Assembly: GCA_020055645.1 (NCBI GenBank) | Contig: CM034546.1 | Span: forward strand, 15,252,001 to 15,316,000 | DNA: 64,000 nucleotides | Direction: 5' to 3' | Source of the DNA: Tomocerus qinae | Lineage: Eukaryota > Arthropoda > Collembola > Entomobryomorpha > Tomoceridae | Shown: one piece after another, positions 3,301 to 63,000 of the stretch | Layout: every line of letters starts with the position of its first letter | How positions within the stretch are numbered: position 1 is the first letter of the stretch | Notes under the pieces: generated by a model | Database searches by the model: none | What the model saw: the letters and a program-made list of their open reading frames with translations, nothing else | Told to the model about the DNA's origin: nothing | Translations under genes and position numbers: made by a program

Positions 3301-6290
3301 CAGTGTATTTATGTTAAGTTAAAAATCATGTAGAGTGACTGTACATAAATTAAATAAAACATAAATTTCCTTATGACGTTTCTTAACAGGTGGGCCTCGT
3401 ACGGAACGACCTACTATCTCAACAACCGAGGCCTATCATACAAAACCACCTCGACCAAATAACACTGTCCTTCCCCTCGAGACTTGCAACATTGACCTCA
3501 ATGGCAATAAAACGGTACATAATATATCCAATTTACGTTAACCTTAGATGATTCAATAATTGGTATTGTGAAATAAAATTATTCAGTTGAGTACATAAAT
3601 AAATTAGCTTTTTATACATAAAAATATCACCACTTATTTCTACTTTAGGGGTGTAGGGAGAACGGGTTTTTCTCTAAATATCTGCCCACCAAGAAATAAT
3701 TTTAAAATAAAAATGGGAGTAATTCATTTGCTTTTGATAACATTCTGACTATATTCAAGCTGTTTAGTAATGGGAGAGCCTATCAGATACAGAAAACTTA
3801 AAACTTACAGACATGTACCTAGTTTTTAATATAACTTTTTTGAGAAAACGTTGAAAACATATGATTCGTGGGAATTGGTTTTGACACATATATTTCATTT
3901 CATTAAACCCATTTCAAAATACCAAAGTATTCTCTCCAAGTCTCCAACATTCTATAATATAATCGCGCTAAAACCTGACTATCCATGTCATGGTAGGAGA
4001 GCCTAGGAAACCTAAAACCCCCTCTCCTAAGTGTAGCACAAGTGCTAGCTGTAACCCCTTTGGACATCGCCTCCTCCCATCAACTATAATAAACATAATA
4101 TATTCACGTTCCTTGAAAGCACGAAAGCAAAATGCGCATGCCCCCTCCCTCTAAACCAACGAAATGAGTTGTTTCATATTCAATGTACAAAATACCATTT
4201 ACCACTCACCAGTGGTAAGTGGTTTTTAATGGTATTTAACGTTAAATACCACTACCTAAAAAGTAGTGGTAAGTGGTATAAATGGTAAAAAATAGTTTTT
4301 TTTAAATTTCGTGTTTGAATTTTGAATAAAATTCGGTGCTAAAGTATGAAATAGCTTAGCAGATGATCATTTTTGTCACAAATTGATAAGTGCTCATCAA
4401 TCAGAGTAGGATTCAACAATGGGGGCGCTAACAACCCTTGCCAATTGAGCAACTAATTGCAATTAAATTAGCATCAATTTTAAATGTGTGATATCACATA
4501 CAATCTTTTTTTCTTCATTTTTTATAATTTTTGGTGTACAATCAAATAAATATGATTAATTTAATTGCTTAAGGGGCTAATTGGAAATATTTCATAGAAA
4601 ATACAGCTTTAAAACTTATATTTTAGGAAGTCTAGTAGTGTATCTGTACTCTGTACTCAGCTGTCTAATCAATCGCTAAAATTTACCATTTTTACTATTA
4701 AATGCATTTTTACCATTAAGTGCATTTTTATCACTGTGATGGTAAAAAAGGCTAAAAAGTGGTAAATTTTGTATACTGTTCATATTATTATAACATCAGA
4801 ACAATAATACAAGTTCACATAAGATGATTATTGGTGATTGATTAGAAATAATTAGCTAAAGAAGACAATCCGTTTTCCAAAATGCTGGAATCATATTTTT
4901 CTGATTTTAAAGGGGAACATTCTGGGGTGTTCATTAAAAATATAGTATTTTATTATTCCCTGTATTGGGCACTACTAAACACAGTTATTGTTTTGGTTTA
5001 GGAACTTTTCGATTTGACCCGGAATTGTTTTTATTACTGTGATCAGTGGCCTGCTTAATTTCTCTTGAGTACCAGGTTCGCCCCTTAGCTGGGTTCACTA
5101 GTTATAGATACTTTGCCTATTTTACCTTAGTTTAAAAATATTAAACTTCAGTAAGCATTGATTTATATTATAACATGTGGTTGATGATCACATGGTTAAC
5201 TTGGGGGGGGGGCATAAATTATAATTAAATTAAATCATTCACCATTATGAAGAAAATGTTCCCGTGTACAATAGCTTTATCCAGAATAATAGTATACCAT
5301 AAACTTCTTGACTCACAGATACAGTCTAAGAATGATATTTTATACTTCTGGTTATGATTAACAGTAAAATTATTGAATAATTTATCAGGCCACGTGGAAC
5401 GAAGCCCTAGTAAATTGTCAACAAAAAAACATGATTCTACTGGTTATCGAATCGGAGGAGGACAACCAATTCCTAAATAATAATGGATTACTGAGACAAG
5501 AACGTAAGTTGAAGTTCAATTTGTCATGGCTTATTTATCATGTTCGAAACAATTAAAAGCCAGGAAAATATAATTTAATATTATTATTTATTAGGTGCAG
5601 TTAGGTATATATAATTTTAGTACAATATTATATTATAGCGATTTCTTTATCAAGAATTTTCTTTTTCCAGCTTTTGATTCAGACACACATTTTTGGAGTG
5701 GGGCCAAGTTTACATCGAGTGATTTTGGACCTCTTATGTGGGAACCGATAGGAAACAAGTTTTTCGGCTATGAATTAAATTCTGCTCATAATACTGGTGG
5801 GTTAACCAAATGGTGGGGTCTGGGAGATCCTGATGTTAAAAATGGAACAGAATTGTGCATTGCTATGCAGTTTCCTGGGTATTTTCCTCCAGTTTGGTTC
5901 ACTTCGGACTGTGACGAGAAATTGCCCTTTATTTGTGTACACGCAAGGTAAGCAATCAATTTTTATTGTAGATGTTTACACTATCTAAACAGATTGAACT
6001 CACTGATTTAATATTGAAATGTAAAGATTTTATTTAATGCATTTAAATAAGTATTATTATTCAGAGTAAATTGCGATTTTAAGGTCTTGAAAAAATGTAA
6101 TTGTTTGCTGTTCTATATATATTATTTTGTAAGAACAAATAATAAACATAATATGAACATAATATTCCCTAGACACCAGCGAATGACAGAGTGCATACAT
6201 GATGAGGGTCCAGCTGGAGGGACAATTAGTTTTCCTGGTAATACTACTTCTAATCCTGGATGGTTTGAATCTCCTCCAGCAATACCATAG
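359..6290 (+). CDS. Gene 1: multi-CTLD secreted protein, 3' part (5' end outside window)
   Basis: Ten exons join in frame: 359-385, 587-670, 963-1381, 1504-1837, 2024-2050, 2233-2319, 3390-3514, 5389-5503, 5671-5947 and 6173-6290 (stop TAG). They give 537 residues, with one nucleotide carried in from an exon left of the window. All junctions are GT-AG. Exons 359-385 and 587-670 are the 27-nt microexon and two-Cys linker that follow a CTLD lying off-window. Exons 963-1381 and 1504-1837 form one CTLD (core motifs WYEAASCC, LAWTNV, LLCEE). After another microexon and linker, exons 3390-3514, 5389-5503 and 5671-5947 form a last, differently split CTLD (WNEALVNCQ, KWWGLGDP, LPFICVH). The last exon adds a 39-residue Gly/Pro/Thr tail. 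Seen: frame, splice sites and motifs. Known: the CTLD fold and its usual extracellular location. Inferred: secretion, because the paralogue downstream has a signal peptide. No membrane segment is visible. Ligand unknown. Confidence 0.8.
963..1837 (+). other. Gene 1 CTLD (exons 963-1381 and 1504-1837) with Pro/Thr-rich linker
   Basis: The first exon encodes a Pro/Trp/Thr linker made largely of a 14-residue repeat, then the start of the domain (SAEERCRKLKW ... EELDARQ). The second exon encodes the CTLD core: WYEAASCC near its start, LASIS, LAWTNV where classical CTLDs have WIGL, GLCVKI, and the closing LLCEE. The intron between them is phase 0, as in the corresponding exon pairs of gene 2. The EPN/QPD and WND calcium and sugar ligands of classical C-type lectins are not present, so sugar binding should not be assumed. 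Confidence 0.8.
989..1190 (+). repeat. In-frame 42-bp coding minisatellite in gene 1
   Basis: A 42-bp unit encoding PDSAWHSTTAAYHP is repeated about five times inside exon 963-1381. The first copy is variant (PDSTWPPTT) and the last runs into a related Thr/Trp/Pro stretch. Internal copies are almost identical at the DNA level, which indicates recent expansion. Because 42 is a multiple of three, changes in copy number lengthen or shorten the linker without breaking the frame. The minus-strand open frame here is a shadow of this repeat. Confidence 0.9.
2320..3389 (+). other. Gene 1 intron (1070 bp), nothing coding seen
   Basis: AT-rich intron bounded by GTAAAG and AACAG. A short GC-rich palindromic patch (CAGGGCCCAGGCCCTG) lies near 2500. 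An open frame at 2608-2838 has no recognisable domain and is probably chance. Confidence 0.6.
3515..5388 (+). other. Gene 1 large intron (1874 bp) with repeat debris
   Basis: The intron splits the terminal CTLD of gene 1. It holds the inverted-repeat element at 4184-4776. Near 3990-4030 is a fragment (TGGTAGGAGAGCCTAGG followed by AAAACCCCCTC) related to one near 23170-23225, so it is probably a dispersed repeat. A run of G lies near 5205. No further exon was found. Confidence 0.6.
4184..4776. mobile_element. Possible inverted-repeat (MITE-like) element in gene 1 intron
   Basis: Both ends are built from inverted copies of a ttaccac/gtggtaa motif. The left end reads tgtacaaaataccatttacc and the right end gtggtaaattttgtata, imperfect inverted repeats of each other. 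Inner arms (4200-4300 and 4680-4765) repeat the motif in both orientations and could fold into hairpins. No open frame and no clear target-site duplication were seen, so class and exact ends are uncertain. Confidence 0.4.
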
Positions 6291-8112
6291 GATATAAAGC
6301 CGTATATAATTCTCTTTACTAATTTGGTTTCAGTATAAAAAATATTTTCCTGTTTTACGACATTATCTAACAATACAGAATTATTGGTATGAATTGAATG
6401 TAATTGGTTAAGTCTTAGAATGAAAGAACGTAGAATTAATGTAAGAAGGCTATATCTGGTATTGGTATTTTATAAGGCTTCTTAGTTCTTTCTCAAGTAC
6501 AGATTTTTAATTTTTTTATGTGTAATAGTATGTAAGTAAGCTTTGCTACAATCTGAACATATTATTGTGTACATTTTGTATAAATACAACATAATTCAAG
6601 CAATAAAGAAACCAGTTAAAATGTAAAATGTTTACTCTCAATTGTTCATTAGTTCATTAATTTCATTCATTGAATTAGAATTATTAAGTTAACGGGGTAA
6701 AGTAATGTTTTTATTATTATTATTCTATTTTACAGTACAATGGTATAAAATACCAAAAACCAGGTACAATTATTAGTAGAGTATTTAATTCTGATCCAGA
6801 TAATAATGTATGTTATTTCTCTGGATATCGATAATATTGGTAATTTATGGTCGGTTACTACAGACAATCTTCGAATAATGTACCGTACTTCACTGAATGA
6901 TACAATTTATCAAAAACTGTTTTTAGGCTTTATATCGTTTTATATATTTTCAATAGCAAAATAATAATATTATTTACTCCACATAGAAATGTTTTCCATA
7001 TTAAAAATTTATTGGTGGGTTTAAATATCTACATATTGTCCATATGAAAAGTTTGTTGTGTTCACAATGAATTAATTTTGATGTTTTTACGGCATATACT
7101 TATTTGTTTGGATGGATGGTACTGATGACAGTACAATACACCTTTTAAACTGCTAACCATTTATATATTTCGGACCTTACATTTATTGCTGTAAGCATTC
7201 TAAACAGATGTATAAAATAATCTGATACTTTAAAAATAAAATCCAAAATTTAATTCATAATAGTTCTTAAAACCTTCGATTAAGGTTAGCACCTGATACA
7301 TTGTGCAACGAAAACGTGAATGAACTTGGTTAAGCACTCAAAAGTTAATTACCAAAGGGCAAAACATTCTAAGAATTTCAGACTTCTTTATGAACCGTTA
7401 AAACCATTTCCTGGACTGTTACTATTAAAGAGCAATGACCAGTAAGTTTAGGTCTACCATTCGTCCTGATTTTAGCAGGATTGTCCTTATTTTTTTGAAT
7501 CCGCATCGATTGCCCAAATTTTCTCTGAATATGTCCCAATTTTTTGACAAATCAATTAAATTTAAGTACAATTTAACAGTACTTCACAGAGTTATTAATT
7601 ACTCTATGGAAATTGAATTTTGGTATCATTAAGTACATTTCCTACACTTTTAAATTGCAGAATTAAAACTGACTTCCAATTATGTAGCTTGTAACCTTTG
7701 CTGGAGTAAATCTGTCTTAAAATTAAGAACAACGTAATTAACATTTTACTTACTAGTACCTAATGCACTCTTTCAATTTAGCCCAATTTAAGGGAGGGTG
7801 GAAAGTTGTCTTGACTTTAGCAGAAAAAGGGCTTTGAATTAGTTAGACAAAATAAAAATAAATCGCAAGTCCCCAAGAAAATTTTATCGTTTGACAAAAC
7901 CAAATTCTGGCAACCCTTAGTTTTGTAGTGAATTGATAATTAAAATGGCATTAGTTTTCTTATAATTCTGGACTTGTTTTGCAAAATATTTTACAGTACA
8001 AATTTTAATTTTAGATGCCAAGAACTTCAAAAATCATTTTATTCAGTCATGAAAAAAGTTAAATTACCTAAAACCTAAAAAGCTAGAATATTTTCACCAC
8101 GTAAATCTTATC
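6291..8112. other. Gene 1 3' UTR and spacer between the two lectin genes
   Basis: AT-rich DNA between the gene 1 stop and the gene 2 start. The only open frame of note (7435-7632) has no recognisable domain. No TATA box or other promoter element could be assigned with confidence, although the gene 2 promoter must lie in the distal part if the 8113 start is right. Confidence 0.5.
6602..6607 (+). promoter_or_regulatory. Candidate polyadenylation signal of gene 1
   Basis: AATAAA about 310 bp downstream of the gene 1 stop codon, the first canonical hexamer in a plausible position. Usage cannot be shown from sequence. Confidence 0.45.
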
Positions 8113-11100
8113 ATGGCGTTCCCGAAAATAAATCTTTCGATATTTATTTTGCATTTCCTTATTGTTCGGGGAAAATCTGCGCATCTAGCTGCAGATAAAA
8201 ATTGTAAGAACAAAATTTTTTGGTGCTTTGTTAATTCAAAATCTATAACATATATTGAGCCTATGATTATGCTCTGGCAATTACAATTAGAATGTGATTC
8301 TATTTCTTGCAGATATAGCAAAGTCTATCAATGAAACCAGATTTGACTACAACAGTTTCAATCGCCAAGGTAAGATTTTTTTTAGAGATGAATAATCTTC
8401 ACAAGTATTTCACCCAACAATTAGTTTCCAGTTTTATATTAAAATTATATAGTTAATTTATTTTGGAATTCCAAAATGTTGAAGTAGAAATTGATAAATG
8501 ATATTCAATAGACAAATAAATGAAGATGTTTGTACTTTTGAAATTTTAATTTGTATTGGTTTTTATTAATTATTTTATTTAGAAAGGTTTTCAATACCAA
8601 CTTTGCAACGGATGGGAGTTTCTCGGAATTTCTTATTTTATGATCAGCCCCAGCACAAATCAGAACTGGAATTACCAAATTCTCTCTCTAAACGTCGTAT
8701 GTATATACACTTTGAAATTAAATTACTAATTTGATAGAAATAAGATTATCAGCATATAGAGTTAAAATAAATTTCCATAATCAGTTTTTATTGTAATATT
8801 TTTCAGACGCAGCACAATCCTCGGAAGCAAAGTGTATGCAATTGCAATTTACCATGTCCATATATCCACTTAAGAAGAGTAGTGGAAATAATGTAGTTCT
8901 GTATTATTCTAAAGAAAAAGCTGCAAGGGACGTGAGTGCTACAATTTTCGGGAACATACTATAAAAAAGTTTAGAAATCCGTAGATTTCTTAAAGTCGTT
9001 TATAGCTAGTTAAACTTACTATTGGTTGTAAAGTAGCCAAATATTAAATATTTAGACAAGTTTTCAAACGATTTCTCATTTAAATGCGTTCATTAAAATT
9101 GTTATGTGCGTATATTTCTAGTTCAACTGGTTCGAAGCAGCAAGTTGTTGTAAAAGGAGAGGCTGGATGCTTGCTAGTATGCTCAACCAAAAGGATCTTG
9201 ACGGATACACAAAGTATGCTGAGCCAAAAAAAGGAACTGACTTTCAACTTAGATGGACTAATGCCCACAGAATCGGAAGGATAATATGGATGAATCTCTA
9301 TGGAGAAGTTTTTAATGGAAACAATTTTGACAGACCAACATTTGATTATGGTCCAGGTTACTGCAAAACTATGAGACAGGATTCAAACGGGTATCTCCAT
9401 ATTTCAGTTCATACAAGTGATAAAAAGTTGGGGGGTAAAGGCCTTTATTGCGAAACAAGTATGCTCAATATTTATTTGTTAATAAAAACCGCAAAAAATT
9501 AAAAAAGGCTTATCATGATAAAATAATTTTTATTTTGTTTTCAGTTGACAAAAAATATAAAGATTTTAACAGTAAGTAAGTTTTAACTTATAATAATAAA
9601 TAATACAATACAAAAATACTATTAATAAATAATCTTCGATGTAAAAAAGCAGACGTTACATAGTATTTTCATCCACCTCCCTAAACTCTGTTAACTTTGT
9701 AGTTTTATCACTGAACCTTTCTGATTTCAAATGAACATCACAAGTCTTCTTAAGACTAAAAACATCCGCTGTTACGTCAACATACAGGAGGTGTTTTTGG
9801 TGTTACCCATTTGTAAACTTGACGTTAATCTTGACCCCTGGATTACAATCAAAAATATTTAAACACAGTATCCCAATTTGTACTTGAATTTCCATGTTTT
9901 CGGTCGGATACATAGACATACAGATTTCCACAAAGTAGCTTCAGTTTGCTTGCAAGTTGGAGCGTGAAACTGATTTTGAGAATTTTATCAAACTAAAATC
10001 TACATACACCTACTCAGATGTTTTTACATCTACTATGCATCTATACTTTTATGCTGACTAAATAAAACATTGACTAATGCAATATATCTACTAATTAATT
10101 TATGTATTCTAATATTTAAAAGAAAAAAATAAGAATTATGAAACTCGTCCATGACATTAAAAAAATATTAATAAAAATCATTATCATTTACAGTCGATTG
10201 TCACAACAAAGTACCTAAACAATGGTACTCCCAAGAGGATTGGTTAGTAGTACTGGGACAATACTGCCGTTCAAGTAAATTCATTAAACATTAACATTCA
10301 ATAAATACAACCAATAAAAATTATAGTTTAATACAAGATGATAATATATATATATTGATTCTAACAATCAAAAAATGTGAAATTCAGTATTATAATATTA
10401 ATTGTTTTACTTTAAGAGTAAACACGTCTATTAATATCAAATTTTTCTTAAACTTATCTTTAAATTATCTTTTAGTTCCCTGCGCATAAAAATTTGGAGC
10501 TTAACCTTTTAAATTTCATTCTTAGTTTCGATTCCATTGATATCCTTCAAAAATTTACTGAATATTGCATTATTGTTGACAAGAAAGTAAGAAACGAAAA
10601 ATTGAGGCTAGGCTAAATGGTTTTTGAAGGGACGATATGTAAAACATGCAATAATTGTTTACACAGTCCCTCCACCACCACCACCACCACCTCCTCCGCC
10701 ACCTCCACCACCTCCTCCGCCACCTCCTCCGCCACCTCCTCCACCACCTCCTCCACCACCACCACCTCCTCCTCCACCACCACCTCCTCCTCCACCTCCT
10801 CCACCACCACCACCTCCTCCTCCACCACCACCTCCTCCTCCTCCTCCTCCATCTTCTCCTGATGAAATTGCTGCTCAATTGTGCAAGAATTTGGTGATTG
10901 ATGAAGTTCAGTTAGTGCAGAAAAGTGGAGGTAAAGTTAATCTTCACATATCCAAGGACAGCCAGACAATAATGGCAAGTGCAATTAATTATTATTTCAA
11001 AATATCGTCTTCTTAACATAGCAATGTGACAAATTACATGATCGCGACAATGTGACCAGCCAGAAAAAATGTTTTTACGAAAATTGGCCAAAATATGGTT

Positions 11101-14100
11101 TGTTATACTTGGTAGCGGTCATAATAATGTGGTATGTCACATTGTAATGTTGAATGCTAAGCAGACGATAAACCGTTGTATATATAGAGTAAAAACCGAA
11201 TTATTTTGGAACATAAAAATATTTAAATAAATTATACAGCTAGGTTTTGAGTGTCACTTCCTTTTCAATTAACGCGAACATTCACAAATAAAACATTCCC
11301 ATTGCCCCAGGTGAGTGGATTAGGAATTTTGGGCAGATAAGTAACGGAATGGTTCTTTTTCCGCGTGATGTGAAATTCAAAACCTAGTATATGTTATATG
11401 TATGTTAGTACAAGATATTTATACACATACGAAGTTCATAACGTTGGCAACCCATTTCTAACTTGATAATAAATGATGAATTTACTTAGTTCAATTGGTT
11501 TCAAGCTGCTAGCTGTTGTAAAGTCAAAGGTTGGATGCTAGCCAGTATTACAAACCAAAAGGATCTTACGGGATACGAAAAGTACCGTCAGACAAGCAAT
11601 GGAACTGGAATTAATCTTGGATGGACCAATGTTCACAAACTCGGAGATCAATGGAGAAATCTCTACGGAGAAGATTTCAATGGAGAAAGTTTTGACAGGG
11701 AAACAGACGACGTTGGTCCAGATTACTGCAAAAAAATGAGACAGGATGCAAACGGAGTTCTTTATCTCACAAATCAAAAATGTGATGCATCTATCACGGT
11801 TGCAGCTCTTTTCTGCGAGGAAAGTATGTTCGACAATTTAATTGCTTAAACAATAATGGAGATTAAAATTCCAAATTTTAAACAAAATATTTATTTTCAA
11901 CCGTAATGAAATTATACAATTAAATTTTAATAATAATTTAAAATTCTCAACTAGTCATCGATAGTAAATAGTCAAATACTGTAAAATGATAATAATATTG
12001 TGATAATAAGCACACAGGTTAAAGTATGTAGGTAATGAAAAACAGGATAATTTATTTTGAGAACATATTGGTTTAAATAACGCCATAGACTGAGTGCTAA
12101 ACTTTTTTTATTTTCAGAGGATTCAAGCAAACCAGCTTTTAATTGTAAGTAAATGCAAAACATTAGTTTTTAAATAATATTAAATTACGAATGGTGTACA
12201 TTATTTTATACTTACGTGTTAAATAGTTAGACCATCAATTTAAAAGCAAATATTATTTAATAGACGACTGTGGCAATCTCAGACCTCAGGAGTGGTACAC
12301 AGCAGAAGATTGGAAGGTGGTATTAAAACAAAACTGTAAAGCAGGTAAATTAATTTTTATCAAACGGTAAAATATTAAGAATTTTGGAATACCTACAAAT
12401 ATACTGATTTTGAAAATTGAGGTACACATTGCTCTTCGGTTTTCAATGATTGATTGACAATGTAAAAGTAATTAAATTCGCAAAATGTCTACTCTATATA
12501 CTTTTTATTGAAGAACTAATTAATCCGAATTTTAATTCAATAATCATAAACCACGATAATAATTTCCTTATTTATCTGTAAGTATGCATTTTTCATTTAT
12601 TAAATATAGTTACAAAAAATTTTCATTGTTGAAACGCAGAAGGAACTACAGCTCCACCTTCTCCTGCTCCACCTTCTCCAGTTACTCCACCACCTCCAAT
12701 TGAAGGTCCGACTACAAGTACCCCACCAGCATCCCCTCCTCCATCAGGAGAATCTGCAGAAGAACGATGCAAGAATCTAAAATGGACGTACACAGGGGAA
12801 TCTACAATTATGAAAAGTAGCAACGCTATGGTTATTATTCATGGATCTGAAGAAATTGAAGCAAGGGAGGTGAGTAGTACTATCAAATACTAGCAATTAT
12901 TAACTACTGACACAATGGAGAAATAAAAAAAAGAATTTTAGTTCATTGCACAAACAAGCTGTTAACATAATACACAAGAAATTAAAGGAATAATTAATTT
13001 GTTGAAAATGTGAATTAAGAAAACTAGTTGGTTTTACACCAAGATCAGTTTACTTGTTTCCCTGTATACGAGTTTACTAAAACCAATTTACATGAAATTC
13101 CAAATTGACTATAAATAATGCATTTCGATGGCAACTATTTTACATCTAAACAGGAATTCTAGAATTTTATAATTCATTCTGGAAACAATCAATCTGATTA
13201 TTTGTACATTTCTAGTTCAACTGGTTTGAAGCTGCGAGTTGTTGCCGACAGAACAACTGGATGATTGCTAGTATAACTACACAAGCTGATGTCGCTGAAT
13301 TCCATAAAGCGTACCATGCAGACTCACAACCACTAAATTTAAATCTTGCATGGACCAACATCCACAGTTTCGATGGCAGATGGAAAAGTCTTTACGGAGA
13401 TATGATCGATATGGGCAACATTACTAGTAGTAGGATCTTTTTCCCACCTGGTACTGGCTACTGCATAAAAATGGCAAAGATCGACGGAGGGCCCCTAATT
13501 GTTACCGATCAGCATTGTCATGTAGGAAAAATATCGGACGAATTGAGGAAGCTTTATTTATTGTGCGAAGAACGTAAGTTTTTATAAAATGTATAAGTAC
13601 TGCCTGTAAAATATATAAGTAATACGTAAAACATACGAATGTCTCTGTGGACGAAGATAATGGTAAAATTTTCATGCTAGTTATAGAGGAGAGGTAAACA
13701 CATGTTGTTTTATGCTAATTTCTAATTAGTTAAGCCATGTATTCGTTATCATATATTATTTTCCATTTTAGGGGATACTGGGAAGCCACGTTTTAATTGT
13801 AAGTAAAATAACAGAGCTTTAATTATCAAAAACGTTATAACAATTAATGTACACTAGTATCGCCATTATGATCTTTACCATTTTTAACTTGTGAATGAGA
13901 TTTAAATGATAAAATTAGTGGATACACATTTTTATCAAACAAAACTTTTTATCAATAGATGACTGTAAGAACCGTTTTCCGACGAAATGGTACACACAGA
14001 GTATTTGGGAGACAGTTTTAGCAGACAAGGATTGCTATGAAGGAGGACCTAGTAAACCTGACCCAGAACCAGACCCAACTTCCACTCTCCCACCAGCACC

Positions 14101-17100
14101 ACCTTTCACTTCGCCCCCACCACCAGTATCACCTTCTACCCAGTCCCCAGCACCTTCTCCTCCATCAGGAGAATCTGCGGAAGAACGTTGTAAGAAACTG
14201 AATTGGAAATATACAGAAGAACCAATAAAACTTTTAAAAACTAATGCGGCTATTGTCAACGTTTCTGGATCTAACGACACTGAAGCAAGAGAGGTAGGTA
14301 TAAGCGCTATTTTTCTACCATTGTGGCAATTAGTGGATTTAATGAATTCAGACATGGCACTTAAAATATTTCTCGGAAATAAATATCCGAAATTTTTGAA
14401 ATATTTCGCGAAATATTTCCCTGGGTAGGGATTTACGGGGCTGTAAAAGAAATAACTTTGGCAGTAAAATAAAGTCTTTTGGGCAAGGGTACAATAGGCA
14501 TTAAAACTGAGTACTGACAGTAATATAAAGTACGAAAGGCAGTAGTACGGGTAGTAGTGGCTGTAGCACAAAAATTAGCATTAATTAGAATACTAGGTTT
14601 TGAATACTCCTTGAGCATACAAATGAATGCAATTCAACTTGACGTAGGGCGATGTAGTGATAGCTTGCTATATACTTTACATCAGATAAGAAATTTAAGG
14701 TAGGTAATTCATTATTTCGTTGGAGTTGTTGGTGGCTTGTAAAAAAATTTAATGTTCCATTAATTATAAGACTCAGACTATTAGACTAGGCTTAGATGTA
14801 GACTCGATTCTTATACTTTACTGAGTTTACTTAGTAGACTGAGTTTTAGTAGAAAATGGCATCCCAACGTGCTTATTCTTCTAATTCTGACACAGATTCA
14901 GAAATTGAAAATAGTACCAATAATACCACGAAAAATACTAAAATCAACTGGAAACTTTTAAAATTTAATACTTTAATACTCCTACTATTAAATACTACTA
15001 CTTAATCCCCCCAGTGCAAGACAGATACCAATCGCTATAAAACGCAAAGCAGGAAGACCTCAAAGTGTATCTAAAGCCTAGTGAAACCATAAATTCTGAT
15101 TCATTGAATTTTGAAAAACGACACTAATTTGTCAGCTGGTTTAATTTTGAACTAATTGTGACTTAATTTTGGACTAATTGTGATTTAATTTTGAACTAAT
15201 TGGGATTTAATTTTTGAACTAATTGTGACTTAATTTTGAACTAATTGTGACTTAATTTCGGACTAATTGTGATTTAATTTTGAACTAATTGTGATTTAAT
15301 TTTGAACTAATTGTGACTTAATTTTGGACTAATTGTGATTTAATTTTGAACTGATTGTGATTTAATTTTGAACTTAATTGTGACTTAATTTTGGACTAAT
15401 TGTGATTTAATTTTGAACTAATTGTGATTTAATTTTGAACTAATTGTGACTTAATTTTGGACTAATTGTGATTTAATTTTGAACTATAATTGTGATTTAA
15501 TTTTGAACTAATTGTGACTTAATTTTGGACTAATTGTGATTTAATTTTGAACTAATTGTGATTTAATTTTGAACTAATTGTGACTTAATTTTGGACTAAT
15601 TGTGATTTAATTTTGAACCAATTGTGATTCAATTTTGACTAAATAAAAATCATTTTTGCTACAGCCACTACTACTGCCTTTCATACTTTATTTTACAGCC
15701 CTGAAAAATTAGACGTGCTGCCTATAGCATTTTGCCCAAAAGACTTTTTTTACTGCCAAAGTTACTTCTTTTACAGCCACAAAATCATTAACCCTATTTC
15801 CCTCCCACTTTCCTTCTCCTTCTCCTTCCCACTTTCATTAATTTCAAATATTTCATTTTTCAAGAAAAATTCTTTGAAATATGAAATTATTGCCATGTCT
15901 AATGAATACCGTAACAACGAACGTTTTCTGATGTTAGTCTGGACTATTGAGTACAATAATCTATTTTAAAATTTGATTTGCACATTTTAGTTTAACTGGT
16001 TCGAGGCTGCAAGTTGTTGCAGATCGAAAAACATGATGCTTGCCAATATACATACAATGAATGATATTGCTGCATACCATAGTATCTACTTTCTACCACA
16101 ACTAGAGTATAGTCTTTCGTGGACCAACGTTCACGGTTTCGGTGGCAAATGGAGAAATCTTTACGGAGAGTTAATTAACTTTAAAGCCATTGCGAACACA
16201 ATGTCAAATGAACCTGGCACTGGTTATTGCTTAAAAATGGGGGGACGAATCGAAGGCCGAGTTTTAAATCTTTTGGATCAAGAATGCAAAAAAGGAAGAA
16301 TAAATGATCAGCCGTCAATGTTTGCATTATTATGCGAGACAAGTATGTTCACTTTTATAATTAAAATAAAGTTAGTTATAACATGGCCATAAACTAGGTC
16401 CAAATATATAGTTACACTAATTCCCTATTATATTGGCCGAAGATTTGTTATCTGACTATACATAATTGTAACTAAGAATTTTAATTCATTCCAGTTGTTG
16501 AATATTGTTTATAATATGAACCTTTTTTCTATTTTAGTGGATAACACAAAGGAGGACTTTAATTGTAAGTAAATTCAATGGCATAAATCATTACCACAAT
16601 CAGGTTTATTTCAACGTTATTTACTTTCATACATTTTAAATTCTATTTAATTGCAAATAAGCTATCTGTGAATAATAAAAGTTACTAGTTGTGACAGCTT
16701 GATGATTTACACCATGGAAAGTTGCTAGAACTTTCCGCGTGTAAAGTTATTTCAATGAAGGAATAAAAATATTTTTTAATATTAATAGACGACTGTATGA
16801 ATCAAATTACCAATGACTGGTTCACAGAAAGTGATTGGGAGAAAATATTGTCAGATCCAGATTGCTATCTTGGTAAATATCTTAACAACTACTTCCTTCT
16901 GTTGAAAAAATGGTCCTGTTTATAGATTTCACTCTATAAACAGTTTCACTAAAACTAATATTAATTTCCAATTTGATTTTTCAAAATAGGTGGACCTAAT
17001 GATCCAAAACGAACTACTACTGTAGCTCCCCTTCCACCAACGGAACTTCCTGTTCCTATTACTACAACAACCGAGGTTGATGCTACATTACGACCTATGC

Positions 17101-20100
17101 CAAATATCACTGTCCCTCCCCTCGAGTCATGCAATATTGATCTCTGTGACAATAAACTGGTACATTTTATATCCACTTTCCGATTAGATTGATCTGAGTC
17201 TACTTCACATTTCCTCTCAAACGTTATTCTACCTTAAATTGTTTTAAAAACATCCAATATTACTCAATGATTTGTAACATTTTTATTGTTTATTAGGCAT
17301 CATGGGACGAAGCCCAAGTAAATTGCCAACTAGAAAACATGATTCTATTGATTGTTGAATCCGAGGCGGATATAGAATTCCTAAATCAGTATGCAGTACT
17401 AAAACAAGATCGTAAGTTCAAACACATTATTACTAAATTAGCAGAAATTTATTGCCGATTACTTAAGCTCAACACAAATACAGCAATAAAATCGTATTTA
17501 AAGGTAGTTCTTCCTCGTTCCAATAACTATTACAGTTTTCCACAATATTTAGCAATTTCAGTGCTTTCAATTATCTCCGGTCGTCAACTAAGGGGAAAAC
17601 AATTAGACATTCCTACGTAATTTGTAATTTTGTAATTTGTAATTGCTTTGTTGTCATACAGTATACGTTCTCAATATAATATCGTCCTTTAAGGATCGAA
17701 AAAGCCTCTATCCACTTTCAGATTGGTGGACGAATAAGCCTATATCCATTTTTTGTTTGGTGGACGAATAAGCCTATATCCATTTTTTGTTTGGTGGACG
17801 AATAAGCCTATATCCAATTTTCGTTTGGTGCAGGAAATAGCTTCTATCCTCTTGCAGCTTTGCTTGTAAAGTTATAGGGGCGTATTGATACATAGTTAAT
17901 ATGGGTGGCGGAAATATTGAAATTTTATTCTTCCTTCCAGCCAGTCCAGTTTTATCCAATATCAAAATACGAATTTGTGTCATTAAAAGTTTTGTTTTTG
18001 TCTTATTGTGTATTAGCTAAAATTTTATAATGCTTGTGTACATTCTAGCATGATATATTTCAAGTATCAACATAAAAACAATAAATACTTCATTTCGTCA
18101 ATTTGTTTATTCTTACTGTGTCCCGACAACATTACGTAATGCTGTAAGATGACAGAGGCTATTTCCTGCACCAAACGAAAATTGGATATAGGCTTATTCG
18201 TCCACCAAACAAAAAATGGATAAAGGCTTATTCGTCCACCAAACAAAAAATGGATATAGGCTTATTCGTCCACCAATCTGAAAGTGGATACAGGCTTTTT
18301 CGATCCTTAAGGGACGATATGATACTGATTTCCAATAGAGGACCATAAATACGTAATAATGGTACATCTTGAATCTAGATAGTTGTAATTTTTGGTGTCC
18401 ATATTAAGTCAGCAATCAAAGATAATTTTAACATCAAAAGAAAATTGAAATATAATTAAAGTTCATGGTTTCGGTACCTTTTACAGTATAAATCGAATTA
18501 ATTCTCCGCATTGAAATACTTCTCCCTCTGGTTGAATGATTTTTATCGTTTTTCAAATGCAAAATAATAGCCCATGAGATATAATTCTCCATATCGAAAT
18601 AATTCACCATTCCAATCTAAATTTCAGTAGGTCAGGTTAGGAAGTGGTATTGCCCCTTTTTGTCAACACCTTTGGTCAACAAAATGTTTTTGAGATCCCT
18701 TTTTGTCAACGAAATATTTATTTTACATGCAGCATGTACATATAATATGTAATATAGATAGCATAAGTTCCAATTTCAGTTAGTACTCACATATGCTTTC
18801 GGAAAAAGAATCCCTTTCTATTATTTAAATTGCATACGAGACGCAGTAATTGCTGTTTAGTGAATGTAATATTAAAGTTTAAATCACAATTTCCGAATTA
18901 TCTCCTTTTGAATTAAAACTACTAAAATTCAATCTTTTCAGCTTTTAATACAGCCACACGTTTTTGGAGTGCGGCCAGGTTTACATCGATCAAGTATGAG
19001 ACTCTTTTATGGGAGCCGGCAGGAGAAGAGTTTCCCGAATTTCGGATAAATAATGCTAATGGCATAACTAAATGGTGGGGTCTGGGAGAACCGATGGACA
19101 ATGAAAAGAAGGGAAAAGAATTGTGTGTTTCTATGCAATTTCCAGGACATTCACCTTCAATTTGGTACGCTTCGGACTGTGGCGAAAAATTGCCATTTAT
19201 TTGTGTACACGCAGCGTAAGATCTAATTTAAATTTATTTAATAGATTTGATATTAAACAGATTTAATTTATAGATGTTAATGACTTGAATATTTAATGGC
19301 ATAAAAAATTTTAAACTTGGTTTGAAAATGCTGTGAATTGCTATTCTGTACCATTTTTTTATTATTTTAAAATTTCAGAGATCAGCGAGCGACAGAGAAA
19401 TGCACTGAGGAACCAGAAGTGGATACTCCCTCTCCAGGCGAGACGACCAGTCCTCCTATGGGCACTACTCCTCCTGTACCTCCTATGGGCACTACTCCTC
19501 CTGTGAATATTACTACTGAAGAGATTACTTCTCCACCTGACTTGTCAGAAACCACGAAAAGTCCAGATACAATTATTGGAGTATTTATTCCTGACCCAGA
19601 TCCCTTGCCACCTCATCTTCCAACTCCGGGTAAACCTATTCCGGGTACACTTACACCTGAAACCAATGAAACCAGTACACTGCGACCAACAGATCCAAAT
19701 ACTAACTGCGCTCAAAAACCAAATGGTGTTTGGATTCCCGATGATTTTGATCCGTTAAACCCATTTTACGCAATCCGTGGTTCAACGGACGAAAAATCGA
19801 CGGCCTTCCGCACCAGTTCTTGTTCGTGGCCATTTTTCATGAATACGCAAATTGCTGGTGAATTTGTTCCCGATAGCAATCCATATTCAGCTATTGAAGG
19901 TTTACTTTCGCAAGGTCAACCACCCTACATTTTTCACCCCTTGAATTTCCACAACAGTATCAATAATGATACTCCAGGAAATTGGCGCCCTCTGAGAAGA
20001 TTATTTCCCACTTTTGCGTTGGTTGTTCATGGAATTATGAAACCCGTTGAGAACAGTGATACGTCGATATTTATTCCGGATTCAATGGTCCCTGGAATCT

Positions 20101-22805
20101 TTTCTCCAATCGACGGTTCTCCTGATATTCCCGGTTCAATGACTCAAGGTCCCCTTAAACTATTCAAAACTCAGAACCCACCGAATATTCAGCAACATAC
20201 AATTGGAACTTGGAAACCAAAAGTTGGTCATTTACCAAACTTTCCATTCCTCACGATATTCGGAACATTATTTCCTTGGGAGAAAGACAAGAATTATGCT
20301 GTCTTTACCTCAAATGATACATTGGTTGTATGTTTTGTTCCCGACGACAATAAAATCGGCCTTAGTTTGACTGGAGAGCTTTTTCAAGGCAATTATCCAG
20401 TATTTATTCCAGATACACCAATACATACTGATGAGAACTGTGATCCAGAATCTGGGTCGCCTATTCTTGGACTATTCAAACCTTGTACAAATGACAAGTT
20501 TTTTGAAGTAACTCATACCATTATCAAACCCTCCGATTGTTTAGGAAATGATACTAAAGACTGGTCGATACATCTCCCGAAAGTTGTCTTTGGAGAATTC
20601 ATTCCAGATTCAGATCCTAAAAATCCCATTAAAGGGACTATGACTAAGAATGACCCTTACACATTTACCCCAAAAGATCCAAGTAGTAAAATTGACAAAG
20701 AAACTCATGGAACATGGAAACCTGACAAAGATGACGCAATTCATGGAACTCTTAAGCCTCGTGAAAATCCTAAAGGGTCCGCTGTTTTCATTCCTGATCG
20801 TATATCTAAAGGAGTAATCTTATATGATGGCGACGATCCAAAAATTTACAGTATCCCTGGAACTATAAGTGATAAAAGTCCGTATATATTCAAACCGATT
20901 AACCCTAGCTTATTATCTCCATCTACTCGACAAGGAATTTGGATCCCAGATGACCCTAGTGAACCCTTAAATCCTTTCGGAGGTAAAGAAGCCCATGGAA
21001 CCGTAGAACCTAAACCTGAAAATTCACCCGAATATGCTCTATTTATTCCGGACGAATTTATATTTGGGAATTTGTTTTGTATATTTGAAAATGTTCTTCA
21101 TGGGCCTATCAATGGTTCCCTTACGGCACAGACTCCTAGTATTTTTGTGCCAGATGAACCTTCTGACGCATTGGCAGCAGCTAATGAAATGTGTATTTGG
21201 ATGCCCAACCCACCCACATCTCCAAAATATCCACACTCTGTAACATACGGAAAGTTTACACCCGACCCTGCAGATCCGGATAAAGGTACTTTTACACCAT
21301 ACCCTGATTTACCCGGAACATTTATTCCCGACGAAGGTTCACCACACGAAGGAACATTGACACAAACTCCTCCTGTACAATTTAAACCGACCAAACCTCC
21401 TCCTTTAGAAAAAGATACTCATGGGACTTGGTGCCCAGATATAGGATTGACACCTTACTATCCGTTGTCTTGTGTTGGAGGCACGATGAAGCCAAAGGGC
21501 CCTATAGTATTGTTTGAACCAGATGAAAATGTGTTTGCTACATTTATTCCTGATGACAGAGATAAACCACCTTCAAATGGAACGATTCAACATGCCCGTC
21601 CACCAACATACACTACCAATCCGCCAGTCAGTTATGAACCACTTCAATCTATGGTACCTGGAATGTTTATTTTCATTCTTTTCCCAGGAGGCACAAAATC
21701 CCCCAACTTTCGGGTACTAATCTTGGAAATACAGCCGACAGCCACGTACTCACTTATTCCTTCTCATATGGTGCCAGTGAAATTTTATCCTGATGATAAT
21801 CCTGATGCTCCAATTAATGGAAAAATTTCCGAAGGGAAAACACCTGTTTTTGAATTTATGGATAAAGTATCAATTACTATTCCCAAGACAGGAATTATTG
21901 TGGTTCTCGATCCTATTAAGCCTAATTATTATCAGAAACCATTTCACGGCGAACTTAAACATCCTGATGGTAGTCACTATCCTAAGGACACTATTATATT
22001 TGTACCCGATAATAACATTCCTGGACAAATGGTACCCCAGAATGAAACACAACCACCTATTTTAGGAGTCTTGATTATTCGTGAGCCTTGGGAGCCTAGA
22101 ATATATACACCCACTCCTCCAGTACCCATATCTGTGTTGATTCACGTCCACTGGCTTCCCACTACTGTTTATGCTTTCCCAGGTGGACCATTGAACCAAA
22201 CTAAAGGTGTTTTAAAACCTGATAATGGTACTACATATTTCATTCCATACAAAGAGTATAGCGGGCAATTTGTTCCTGATTCAACTACTAATAAATTAAT
22301 CCCAATCAAAGGTAAAATGGTCGAAAGCGTACCACCAACGTTTATTCCCAAAAAATTAGCAGAAGTTGTTACTAAAGATACTCCAGGGACTTGGCTTCCT
22401 GATTCAACAGTGGACGAAGACACGCCTTTTGGAAGTCCCCAAGTTGGAGTGATGAAACCAACCGAAAATCGAAGAGCTATGATTTGGGTTGTTATGGTAG
22501 TGCCACCTACTGAAGGGACTAGTGGACATTTTGTACCTGATGAAAACCCAGGTGATATTATTCCTGGATATATGATACTCCCGAATGTTTTTGTAGCCAC
22601 TCATTCTTCGGGCGTCGTCACTGTGATGACTTATGGGACATGGAAACCTGACCCCGGTGCACCTCCTGGCGGTCCCTTTTCAGAACCAGACCATGGGTAC
22701 CTTGAATCTGAGGGAAAAGATGTTCTTTGGTTCCCAGATAAAATTGATCAGTGTGAAACGGAAATTAGTGGAAACACACCGAACACATTCTTTCTTGTTT
22801 GTTGA
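8113..22805 (+). CDS. Gene 2: secreted five-CTLD protein with polyproline stalk and giant PD-repeat tail
   Basis: Twenty-two exons join in frame to 2326 residues: 8113-8203, 8313-8369, 8583-8696, 8807-8931, 9122-9458, 9545-9571, 10194-10274, 10667-10974, 11490-11823, 12118-12144, 12264-12344, 12640-12869, 13216-13573, 13772-13798, 13959-14293, 15991-16342, 16538-16564, 16789-16872, 16990-17159, 17297-17411, 18942-19215 and 19379-22805 (stop TGA). The start was chosen because it opens a signal peptide (hydrophobic LSIFILHFLIV, likely cleaved near residue 24). Five CTLDs follow at about residues 95-241, 345-491, 565-723, 805-961 and 1035-1184, joined by two-Cys linkers and Pro-rich segments, one of 61 prolines. 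Residues 1185-2326 come from one exon: a Thr/Pro-rich neck, then ~13 repeats. No membrane segment is apparent, so a secreted, possibly matrix or surface-associated protein is inferred. Junctions are GT-AG except a likely GC-AG at 10975. Function and ligand unknown. Confidence 0.82.
8807..9458 (+). other. Gene 2 CTLD1 (exons 8807-8931 and 9122-9458)
   Basis: The lead exon (AKCMQLQF ... KEKAARD) and core exon (FNWFEAASCC, LRWTNAH, GPGYCKTM, GLYCET) form the first CTLD. Compared with CTLD2 (NQKCD), the penultimate conserved cysteine is replaced by serine (HTSDKK), so one expected disulfide is missing. The exon boundary is phase 0, as in the next three domains. Confidence 0.8.
9572..10193 (+). 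other. Gene 2 intron (622 bp), nothing else seen
   Basis: Intron between the first microexon and its two-Cys linker exon. AT-rich, with no repeat or coding signal recognised. Confidence 0.5.
10275..10666 (+). other. Gene 2 intron (392 bp), nothing else seen
   Basis: Intron between the first two-Cys linker exon and the polyproline exon. AT-rich, ending in ACACAG. No other feature recognised. Confidence 0.5.
10669..10851 (+). repeat. 61-codon uninterrupted polyproline tract
   Basis: CCT and CCA codons with a few CCG encode 61 prolines in a row in the frame fixed by the flanking splice phases. CCC is not used. The trinucleotide repeat keeps the other frames open too (Thr/Ser and His/Leu on +, Glu/Val and Arg/Trp on -); these are shadows. 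Such a tract should form a stiff polyproline-II rod between CTLD1 and CTLD2. Confidence 0.9.
10975..11489 (+). other. Probable GC-AG intron of gene 2
   Basis: The upstream exon must end in phase 0 to join the CTLD2 core exon. At that point the sequence is ATG|GCAAGT, a GC donor with the rest of the donor consensus intact; the acceptor is TTACTTAG. No GT donor in the same phase is evident nearby. The intron also holds a weak inverted repeat (aatgtgac near 11032 and gtcacatt near 11135) that may be a small degenerate element. Confidence 0.6.
12640..13573 (+). other. Gene 2 CTLD3 (exons 12640-12869 and 13216-13573)
   Basis: The linker exon is rich in Ala, Pro and Thr (APPSPAPPSP), then reads SAEERCKNLKW ... 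EEIEARE. The core exon has FNWFEAASCC, LAWTNIHSF, GTGYCIKM and LLCEE. It is the gene 2 domain most like the gene 1 CTLD at 963-1837: both lead exons share SAEERC, YSGES/YTGES and HGSEE motifs. Confidence 0.8.
12870..13215 (+). other. Gene 2 intron (346 bp) inside CTLD3, nothing else seen
   Basis: Phase-0 intron in the conserved position within the CTLD. AT-rich, with no repeat recognised. Confidence 0.5.
14423..15794. mobile_element. Non-autonomous long-TIR DNA transposon (Mutator-like or foldback) in gene 2 intron
   Basis: A 1372-bp element is bounded by a 9-bp direct repeat TATTTCCCT (14414-14422 and 15795-15803) that looks like a target-site duplication. The ends start GGGT and form long inverted repeats: 14440-14495 pairs with 15731-15778 (CTTTTGGGCAA against TTGCCCAAAAG), and 14528-14580 with 15651-15695 (GGCTGTAGCA against TGCTACAGCC). 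Between the arms is a 22-bp minisatellite. A 49-residue open frame beginning MASQRAYSSNSDTDS at 14856 has no recognised domain and may be residue of an internal gene. A 9-bp duplication with G-rich long ends fits Mutator-like elements, but there is no transposase to confirm this. Confidence 0.65.
15125..15650. repeat. 22-bp minisatellite with 66-bp higher-order pattern inside the intronic element
   Basis: Tandem copies of a 22-bp unit, GAACTAATTGTGATT followed by TAATTTT, fill the middle of the element. Three variants alternate regularly (GAAC...GTGATT, GAAC...GTGACT, GGAC...GTGATT), giving a 66-bp trimer repeated several times with only occasional indels. Confidence 0.85.
16990..19215 (+). 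other. Gene 2 CTLD5, split over three exons
   Basis: Exons 16990-17159 (Thr/Pro linker ending LESCNIDLCDNKL), 17297-17411 (ASWDEAQVNCQ ... VESEADIEFL) and 18942-19215 (FWSAARF, LWEPAGEEF, KWWGLGEP, ELCVSMQF, WYASDCGEKLPFICVH) mirror the last CTLD of gene 1 exon for exon. This is the most canonical CTLD of the gene, but EPN reads EPM and WND reads WYAS. Confidence 0.8.
17679..18320. mobile_element. Inverted-repeat element with four-copy 34-bp arms, in the last long intron of gene 2
   Basis: The left arm (17679 to about 17850) has tandem 34-bp units containing GGTGGACGAATAAGCC. The right arm (about 18150-18320) has the same units in reverse orientation (GGCTTATTCGTCCACC). The outer ends match as inverted repeats (ATATCGTCC and GGACGATAT). 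About 300 bp of unrelated DNA lies between the arms. No open frame, and the target-site duplication is unclear, so this is a MITE or foldback element of unknown superfamily. The rest of this intron (17412-18941) shows nothing coding. Confidence 0.7.
19379..22805 (+). other. Gene 2 terminal exon: ~13 copies of an ~82-residue PD-repeat
   Basis: One 3427-bp exon encodes residues 1185-2326. A Thr/Pro-rich neck (PPMGTTPPV twice) comes first. Then GxF[IV]PD-type starts recur at protein residues of about 1252, 1345, 1424, 1502, 1590, 1662, 1748, 1831, 1905, 1985, 2067, 2147 and 2234, a spacing of 72-93 residues. A full repeat has four segments of roughly 20 residues: GEFIPDSDP, then GTMT...P..FTP, then a HGTWKPD segment, then HGTLKP.EN ending in AVFIPD. 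Repeats 5, 6, 8 and 12 are the most regular; 9-11 are degenerate. Cysteines are few. I recognise no family. The regular Gly-hydrophobic-Pro strands suggest a beta-rich solenoid or rod, which is inference only. Confidence 0.8.
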
Positions 22806-23882
22806 TTCATGAAATAAATACTACAGAAATTTAATATTATGACTATTATTATTGAATCTGGGAAAGAACTTGGTAGTTTGTTACTAAGTTTTATGTATTT
22901 ATTTTTATTTATATTTGAAATGATGTTACAACTGAATTTTACAACCAAATACAACATAGATGGATTAATGATCTTTAATAACTTAATAGCTTAACTAATC
23001 TTATCTAAAAATTATGAAATAAACATTGTTTATTGTCTTGGTCAATTTGTATTTCACAACACTTTAATACAAAGTGTCAATGCGTTAATGTGACTTATCT
23101 CTATATATAATCGCAGACTTGATAAATTTACCTGTCTATATATATTTATATATATATATATGTATGTACGTGTGGTAGGGAGAACCTAGGGCACCTGCAT
23201 ATATTACGTAAAGCAAAACCCCCTCCCACATGTGTTTAAAATCTTAAGCCTGAAATATTTATGTAAATATTTTTTTATTTGAAAAATATTTCCGTAAATA
23301 TTTTTTTATTTGTAAAATATTTCCGTAAATATTACATAACTCAAAATATTTAAATATATTTACGATATTTTTTGATATTATTTTCCCACCACTATGAAAC
23401 GAAAAAATACAAAAGAAAATTTTCCTACGAGTAGCCAAAAATTTTTTTTATAAATGTCGGACCCCTGGTAATATGTATATTTCATAAATGGTCAGTGGAA
23501 AGCGAGCAACGTGCCAATAAGAATAAAACTTAAACATATTTTATTAAGAACAGTAACAATCTTTCGAGTATAATAATCTTACTTTGGAAGTTAATGAATT
23601 AATAACGCATTGTGAATAAATGTTGAAATTGTTAAGTCAGAAACAACAAATAATAATTTGAGAGGTAAACATGGCGTCAATAAATCCGTTATAAATAGTT
23701 TTATAGTACTGGAGAAACTACATTCGCATTTCGCAAGGTTTTAGCAAAAAGCAGCCATGTAGTCGTCGATTACCTGATTTATGGTACTTTTGTGGCTGAA
23801 AATTGTACAGGATTTTATATTTTTGATAAATGTTTGCGAGTTCTTTAAATATGCCTACATTTTTGTCAGACCCTCAGATGAT
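22806..23882. other. Spacer between gene 2 and the satellite array
   Basis: No gene seen. It contains a TA-rich microsatellite (about 23135-23165), a fragment of a dispersed repeat (GGTAGGGAGAACCTAGG ... AAAACCCCCTCCC, about 23172-23230) related to one near 3990-4030, and a repeated aaatatttccgtaaatattt palindrome (about 23265-23345). Confidence 0.5.
22813..22818 (+). promoter_or_regulatory. Candidate polyadenylation signal of gene 2
   Basis: AATAAA seven bases after the stop codon; a second AATAAA lies at 23018-23023. The second gives a more usual 3' UTR length. Which is used cannot be told from sequence. Confidence 0.4.
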
Positions 23883-58043: not shown

Positions 58044-58249
58044 GGAACGTTTTGGGTTTTGTTTTACTGGGCGACGAAAAATTGAACACAATAATAAATA
58101 CTAAAGTGACCACATTTTTCCACATTAAAAGCAACCACATTTTAAATTCGCCAAATCAGTAAAAATGTTATTACCAGCAACAAGTTTACCAATTTAAACA
58201 ATATGATCAGATATTCCAAAAATCAGTGTGCCTATAATTTTCAATAAAA

Positions 58250-60358: not shown

Positions 60359-60642
60359 TTCGAGTTAACATGGAATCCAGATTTGGGCAAGGAATTCACA
60401 TGGTTTGGATAACATTTGACAGCTCTAAGGCCGGAGAAAATGCAATAACAGGATGGTACTGCCGCTGTAAAAATGGTTCCCGAACAGTGGGCTGCTGTAG
60501 TCACATAACATCAGTGATATGGTACTTAGGATTTGCTCGTCATCAAGAAATAGACTTAGTTTCCAATAAGCGGGGATTGGCTGAAAATATACTTGATGCT
60601 GATAAGTTATTGCAAAACCACCTCGAGGAGAGTCAAGAATGA
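60355..60642 (+). pseudogene. SWIM zinc-finger C-terminal part of the transposase, in a shifted frame
   Basis: The frame opens at an ATG overlapping the stop of the upstream frame (ATGA) and encodes 95 residues. GWYCRCKNGSRTVGCCSHIT gives the CxC...CxH pattern of a SWIM zinc finger (C36, C38, C48, H50 of this frame), followed by a helix (VIWYLGFARHQ). SWIM domains occur at the C-terminus of transposases of this type, so this is most simply the tail of the 58250-60358 protein separated by a small indel near 60352-60358. Translation from the overlapping ATG is possible but unsupported. Confidence 0.75.
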
Positions 60643-60990: not shown

Positions 60991-61659
60991 TACTAGAATT
61001 TATTTAAAAGTACCAGAATTTATTTAAAAGTACTAGAATGTATTTAAAAGTTCTAGAATGTATTTAAAAGTACTAGAATTTATTTAAAAGTTCTAGAATT
61101 TATTTAAAAGTACTAGAATGTATTTAAAAGTACTAGAATTTATTTAAAAGTACTAGAATTTATTTAAAAGTACTAGAATTTATTTAAAAGTACTAGAATT
61201 TATTTAAAAGTTCTAGAATGTATTTAAAAGTACTAGAATTTATTTAAAAGTTCTAGAGTTTATTTAAAAGTACTAGAATTTATTTAAAAGTACTAGAATT
61301 TATTTAAAAGTACTAGAATTTATTTAAAAGTTCTAGAATGTATTTAAAAGTACTAGAATTTATTTAAAAGTACTAGAATGTATTTAAAAGTACTAGAATT
61401 TATTTAAAAGTACTAGAATTTATTTAAAAGTACTAGAATTTATTTAAAAGTTCTAGAATGTATTTAAAAGTACTAGAATTTATTTAAAAGTTCTAGAATG
61501 TATTTAAAAGTTCTAGAATGTATTTAAAAGTACTAGAATTTATTTAAAAGTTCTAGAATTTATTTAAAAGTACTAGAATTTATTTAAAAGTACTAGAATT
61601 TATTTAAAAGTACTAGAATTTATTTAAAAGTTCTAGAGTTTATTTAAATGTACTAGAAT
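60991..61659. repeat. 20-bp minisatellite, left block
   Basis: About 33 tandem copies of TATTTAAAAGTACTAGAATT with two common variants (TTCTAG for TACTAG, and AATG for AATT). The block starts about 350 bp after the transposase tail and is interrupted at 61660 by a mobile element. Confidence 0.95.
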
Positions 61660-62750: not shown

Positions 62751-63000
62751 ACTAGAATATATTTAAAAGTACTAGAATTTATTTAAAAGTACTAGAATTT
62801 GTTTAAAAGTACTAGAATTTATTTAAAAGTACTAGAATTTGTTTAAAAGTACTAGAATTTATTTAAAAGTACTAGAATTTATTTAAAAGTACTAGAATTT
62901 GTTTAAAAGTACGAGAATTTATTTAAAAGTACTAGAATTTATTTAAAAGTACTAGAATTTATTTAAAAGTACTAGAATTTATTTAAAAGTACTAGAATTT
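62751..63000. repeat. 20-bp minisatellite, right block
   Basis: About 12 further copies of the same 20-bp unit resume directly after the hAT-like element. Some read TTTGTTTAAAAG where the left block has TTTATTTAAAAG, a variant not seen there. Confidence 0.95.

Follow-up and report, generated by a model that had tools for sequence, protein, structure and literature searches.

The window analysed here comprised 64,000 nucleotides of the collembolan Tomocerus qinae (GenBank assembly GCA_020055645.1, contig CM034546.1, positions 15,252,001 to 15,316,000 of the forward strand; all positions below are those of the window). It contains a gene whose terminal exon (19379..22805, + strand) encodes 13 successive, cysteine-poor repeats sharing a common strand pattern, joined in frame to a series of C-type lectin-like domains (CTLDs). 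Each repeat is predicted to fold as a six-stranded unit. The best overall explanation, on which we judge the chances to be evenly balanced, is a secreted CTLD protein in which the 13 beta domains form a long arm, spacer or fibre segment.

The terminal exon

The exon is preceded by an AG acceptor and ends with a TGA stop codon at 22803-22805. It belongs to an open frame extending from 19371 to 22805, of which the portion starting at 19379 encodes 1,142 residues; an equal number of open codons would be reached by chance with a probability of ~1e-29 at the base composition of the exon. GC contents at the three codon positions were coding-like (0.51/0.45/0.29), the window as a whole displaying 31 % GC. 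An AATAAA signal is located directly past the stop (22813..22818, + strand), followed by a second such signal at 23018. The donor of the preceding exon (18942..19215) and the acceptor at 19379 are in phase, in agreement with the preliminary description of one giant exon fused to the CTLDs.

These features bear on whether the array could be decaying and non-functional, i.e. a pseudo-exon or an unconstrained tail. Three degenerate repeats (4, 7 and 9) and an upstream paralogue devoid of the array, whose loss suggests such a fate, would fit this reading. It is nevertheless opposed by the 1,142 stop-free codons and their composition, by the in-phase acceptor and poly(A)-type signals, and by a strand skeleton conserved in most repeats, which make it highly improbable.

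The repeat array

A Thr/Pro-rich linker (19379..19577, + strand) precedes the first repeat and contains one exact 26-nt duplication, situated outside the repeats. A profile built from six repeats identified 13 successive domains over residues 68-1125 of the exon protein, all on the + strand: repeats 1 (19578..19856, degenerate in its second half), 2 (19857..20093), 3 (20094..20330), 4 (20331..20591, the most degenerate), 5 (20592..20810), 6 (20811..21065), 7 (21066..21314, degenerate), 8 (21315..21536), 9 (21537..21779, degenerate in its second half), 10 (21780..22022, diverged), 11 (22023..22262, diverged), 12 (22263..22523) and 13 (22524..22751). The fourth and ninth domains matched this profile only partly (2.3 and 7.9 bits, respectively). 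For a leave-one-out comparison, each of the six seed repeats was scored against a profile of the other five, and the remaining seven against all six. All 13 repeats outscored the highest-scoring of their 200 shuffles, 192-199 of which were reported per repeat; the weakest were repeat 4 (10.1 bits against 6.4 for the best shuffle) and repeat 9 (14.4 against 4.9).

Repeats were 73-93 residues long (mean 81.4) and contained only 10 cysteines in a total of 1,058 residues. The ~13 cysteine-poor copies of ~82 residues announced in the preliminary description were therefore recovered, as were their different stages of divergence. The recurring GxF[IV]PD starts were retained in part, being exact in six of the 13 repeats and degenerate in the other seven. 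Motif G-x-[FWLMIV]-x-P occurred 28 times, against a mean of 3.5 in 2,000 shuffles (maximum 11), and its extended form G-x-[FWLMIV]-x-P-D 14 times, against a mean of 0.24 in as many shuffles (maximum 3).

Pairwise identity among repeats averaged 26.0 % and reached at most 44 %, while adjacent repeats shared 26.1 %. Since neighbours were no more alike than all pairs, the array is old and not a product of recent slippage, and a recent expansion of the minisatellite type was ruled out. DNA copies of the repeats shared only stretches of 20-40 nt (minimum length 20 nt), which also argued against recent expansion. Apart from one 42-nt DNA relic near the upstream paralogue, described below, no further copies were found elsewhere in the window: none by profile among six-frame pieces of at least 15 residues, and tblastn returned only three chance-level rows (E 5.6-9.7).

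Strand motifs and predicted fold

Alignment of the repeats uncovered six strand motifs: S1 GxFxPD, S2 IxGx[LMI], S3 xFxP, S4 TxGxWxP, S5 xxGx[LM]KP and S6 xFxPD. This skeleton was kept in most repeats and, together with AlphaFold2 models, it replaces the four segments of ~20 residues into which each repeat had initially been divided. For repeat 5 alone, the model was a six-stranded domain of high predicted confidence; a model of a repeat pair, with repeat 6 as its second half, displayed a six-stranded unit in each repeat. Strand starts were unevenly spaced, being 10-15 residues apart within repeat 5, followed by seven residues to the first strand of repeat 6. Structural neighbours, among the matches listed, were mostly closed barrels. 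Each repeat probably closes as a six-stranded barrel.

The beta-rich character first proposed for the array agrees with the six predicted strands per repeat, while neither model supported the solenoid proposed with it. A beta-solenoid or continuous beta-rod, with 20-residue segments as the stacked coils of one structure, could account for the short strands and for glycines and prolines at recurring places. It fits poorly with a lone repeat being confidently modelled as a domain, with the recurrence of this pattern in the pair, with the barrels prevailing among the listed neighbours and with the uneven strand spacing; we consider it very unlikely. A rod-like overall shape of the array remains plausible.

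Identity of the repeat to the PilZ domain and to the C-terminal barrel of 3C-like/NS3 proteases was 3-13 % among the matches listed, with no corresponding Pfam match. PilZ domains are characterized by the cyclic di-GMP motifs RxxxR and [DN]xSxxG; the former occurred once in the whole exon and the latter was absent from the exon protein. GDSG and AAHC are catalytic strings of trypsin-like/3C protease barrels, although 3C-type enzymes differ, and neither was present in the exon protein. These resemblances are likely to reflect a shared simple topology only.

The two halves of the repeat, S1-S3 and S4-S6, were weakly similar (hhalign local score of 16.0, the highest among 200 column shuffles being 12.2). 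The local match covered only S2-S3 versus S5-S6 (18 columns, probability 19.7 %), and a global alignment also pairing S1 with S4 reached a probability of 2.1 %. As the match is only local and the probabilities low, duplication of a three-strand half is to be taken as a lead rather than a result.

Family and homology searches

Searches covered Pfam, NCBIfam, PHROGs and the PDB, the sequence collections being those of phages, plasmids, viruses and prokaryotes. Library scans compared single proteins with profiles, rather than profiles with profiles, and few matches above E ~0.1 pass their filters. Within this scope, the array exon matched no family in Pfam (E <= 10), NCBIfam or PHROGs. The 13 single repeats yielded one chance-level Pfam match (Toxin_30, E 0.16, one repeat out of 13), and each of the two PDB searches by sequence a single chance-level row (E 0.19 and 0.45). 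Phage and plasmid collections held no match to the exon. Repeat pairs 5-6 and 12-13 had no relative in viral or prokaryote genome contigs, nor did repeat 8 in viral contigs, and the viral structure library contained nothing at E <= 0.001. A viral or bacterial origin of the array was rejected for the phages, plasmids and viral and prokaryote contigs searched.

Motif string GTWKPD had no literature match; for a set of four motif strings, the papers among the matches listed were unrelated to the repeat. No description of the repeat appeared in titles and abstract starts among the matches listed. The initial view of a repeat domain without a name was borne out, 'unrecognised' being understood as unrecognised in Pfam, NCBIfam, PHROGs and the PDB. 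The repeat might nonetheless belong to a family already described in eukaryotic resources (InterPro, UniProt, AlphaFold DB), as the non-eukaryotic collections and the single-protein scans with their filters would allow. As the exon matched no family in Pfam even at E <= 10 and Toxin_30 was the sole hit of single repeats, we regard this as rather unlikely.

The C-type lectin part and gene structure

The array exon is the last of 22 exons of an intron-containing gene on the + strand (8113 to 22805), which reads in a single frame with splice sites chosen by eye and checked by script. Introns were of the GT-AG type in 20 out of 21 cases; the one following exon 8 was better read as GC-AG, with donor GCAAGT, and the predicted protein then reaches 2,326 residues. 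From its CTLDs and exon structure, the gene looks animal. Exon 1 (8113..8203, + strand) carries the ATG and an N-terminus more hydrophobic than any other 19-residue stretch of the protein; by its hydropathy, it looks like a signal peptide.

The module adjoining the array is encoded by two exons (17297..17411 and 18942..19215, + strand; a GT donor joins the second one to 19379) and is a clear C-type lectin domain (Pfam Lectin_C, 39.3 bits against a cut-off of 22.6, E 1.2e-9). Four divergent CTLD-like modules are situated upstream on the same strand, at 9122..9458 (module 1, with weak CTLD identity), 11490..11823 (module 2), 13216..13573 (module 3) and 15991..16342 (module 4). They share a layout consisting of a CTLD-like exon, a 27-nt exon, an 81-84 nt exon and a proline-rich linker, except for module 3, where the 81-84 nt exon and the linker are merged into one exon. 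The linker exon at 10667..10974 (+ strand), which precedes the GC-AG intron with donor GCAAGT, displays 61 consecutive prolines, encoded by a tandem repeat rich in CCT, CCA and CCG.

None of the four upstream modules matched Lectin_C in Pfam, and a module from the upstream paralogue remained below the cut-off (E 0.061). Modules 1-3 and one paralogue module were 38-47 % identical to module 4. In a search of the PDB with a module profile, the top two of five rows were CTLDs with weak E values (0.21 and 0.37), and the other three were SIN3. Aligned to the terminal CTLDs by hhalign, the upstream modules gave a weak match (probability 7.4 % over 32 columns). Of the five CTLDs initially counted, the last was thus clear, while the four upstream ones lacked a Lectin_C match and are probable CTLDs by motif.

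EPN or QPD, together with WND, are the canonical calcium/sugar motifs of CTLDs, and CTLDs without sugar binding are common. None of these strings occurred in residues 1-1184, which speaks against classic sugar binding, though not against binding in general.

Two introns of this region harbor repetitive DNA. A 22-bp minisatellite of 22.7 copies lies between CTLD-like modules (15140-15642), and the intron that splits the terminal CTLD contains a fold-back-looking element (17697-18302), whose two ends bear oppositely oriented 34-bp subrepeats.

The upstream paralogue and history of the array

A neighbouring gene located upstream displayed a terminal CTLD 59 % identical to that of the array gene. 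Its last exon begins like the array exon and ends after 38 residues (stop TAG, 6288-6290). About 470 bases past this stop lies a relic corresponding to the beginning of repeat 1 (6760..6801, + strand), which matched 34 out of 42 nt with a window-wide E of 3.6e-4, the next best match being at 0.64; its score was reached by none of 500 Markov sequences. A poly(A)-type signal is situated at 6602, between the stop and the relic. The simplest reading of this one short match would be that the ancestor possessed the array and that the upstream copy lost it. A linker exon of the paralogue (986-1190) carries a minisatellite with a unit of 42 nt or 14 residues (PPDSAWHSTTAAYH) in 4.9 copies.

This neighbourhood also bears on a role in innate immunity, in which the array would be the ligand-binding or diversifying region of a multivalent lectin, would recognise microbes together with the CTLDs and would owe its divergence to selection for variety. 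Insect C-type lectins are reported to be associated with cell adhesion, recognition of pathogens and activation of immunity (PMC7379682), and such roles, along with a paralogue sharing the terminal CTLD at 59 % identity and repeats diverged to 26 % mean identity, would suit this interpretation. Conversely, the strand skeleton is kept in most repeats, as for a structural module, the N-terminal half lacks any EPN, QPD or WND string and the array was apparently lost from the paralogue. We regard an immune lectin of this kind as rather unlikely.

Other elements in the window

Directly downstream of the array gene, positions 23890-56237 are occupied by a tandem higher-order satellite with units mostly of ~1,865 bp and a later spacing of 2.3-2.7 kb; each unit holds an internal 30-bp minisatellite (TAGTAACTAATTGGTGTATATGGGCATTTC). 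An intact open frame of 706 residues follows at 58238-60358 and matches the transposase family DDE_Tnp_4 in Pfam (E 8.8e-16). In the open frame after it (60337-60642), a CxC...CxH pattern is reminiscent of a SWIM finger. Two arrays of a 20-bp minisatellite with identical unit were located at 60991-61660 and 62751-63000.

Possible role and comparable systems

In the preferred reading of an arm, spacer or fibre segment, each of the 13 copies would constitute a cysteine-poor beta domain of ~80 residues with six motifs of the form (G)-x-[F/W/L/M]-x-(P). The array forms the C-terminal end of a protein that would be secreted and extracellular, with one clear and four divergent CTLDs on proline-rich linkers in its N-terminal half. 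The domains would most likely stack end to end, and the CTLD part may bind partners or join molecules end to end. The array itself would supply reach, multivalency and strength without disulphides, in a mechanical or matrix role.

The closest working analogue found in print may be octovafibrin, an egg-tether protein of Octopus bimaculoides described as a CTLD followed by 29 EGF domains and a second CTLD, whose end-to-end assembly into load-bearing threads is attributed to the lectin domains (PMC10336842). As far as that description extends, both proteins combine CTLDs with a long tandem array of small domains and both would be extracellular, secretion being suggested here by the N-terminus. 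They differ in that octovafibrin repeats are EGF domains with three disulphides each, whereas those of the array are cysteine-poor and match neither EGF nor any other Pfam family; in addition, the present array is C-terminal, lacks a second flanking CTLD and follows four divergent modules.

Flatworm adhesion proteins Mlig-ap1 and Mlig-ap2 are likewise reported as very large (PMC6410801; relatives in PMC9229212), the former with a C-type lectin domain and 17 EGF-like modules, the latter with 46 repeats of 221-255 residues (PMC6410801, PMC9229212). On the features reported there, they share with the array protein the combination of CTLD and long arrays. They are distinguished by a high cysteine content and by vWD, TIL and EGF domains, none of which appeared in Pfam scans of the array gene, the comparison being one of domains and not of repeat sequences. 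Bacterial fibrillar adhesins, outlined as presenting an adhesive domain on a stalk (PMC9210967), would work alike if the array were a stalk. They are, however, bacterial surface proteins, while the array had no NCBIfam match and two repeat pairs had none in prokaryote contigs.

More tentatively, and with the odds somewhat against it, the repeat may represent a new animal domain family. Its six-stranded, cysteine-poor barrel would have arisen by duplication of a three-strand half and subsequent tandem expansion within one exon, as a disulphide-free arm captured by a CTLD gene and optional between paralogues.

To our knowledge, most animal extracellular arrays draw on a short list of modules, such as EGF, Ig, FN3, TSP1 and cadherin. 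If the proposed reading is true, a cysteine-poor tandem beta domain of the G-x-aromatic-x-P type, unmatched in the libraries searched, would be an addition to this list and a template for cysteine-free protein fibres, and the locus would illustrate how adjacent lectin paralogues can differ by the gain or loss of a whole array carried on a single exon.
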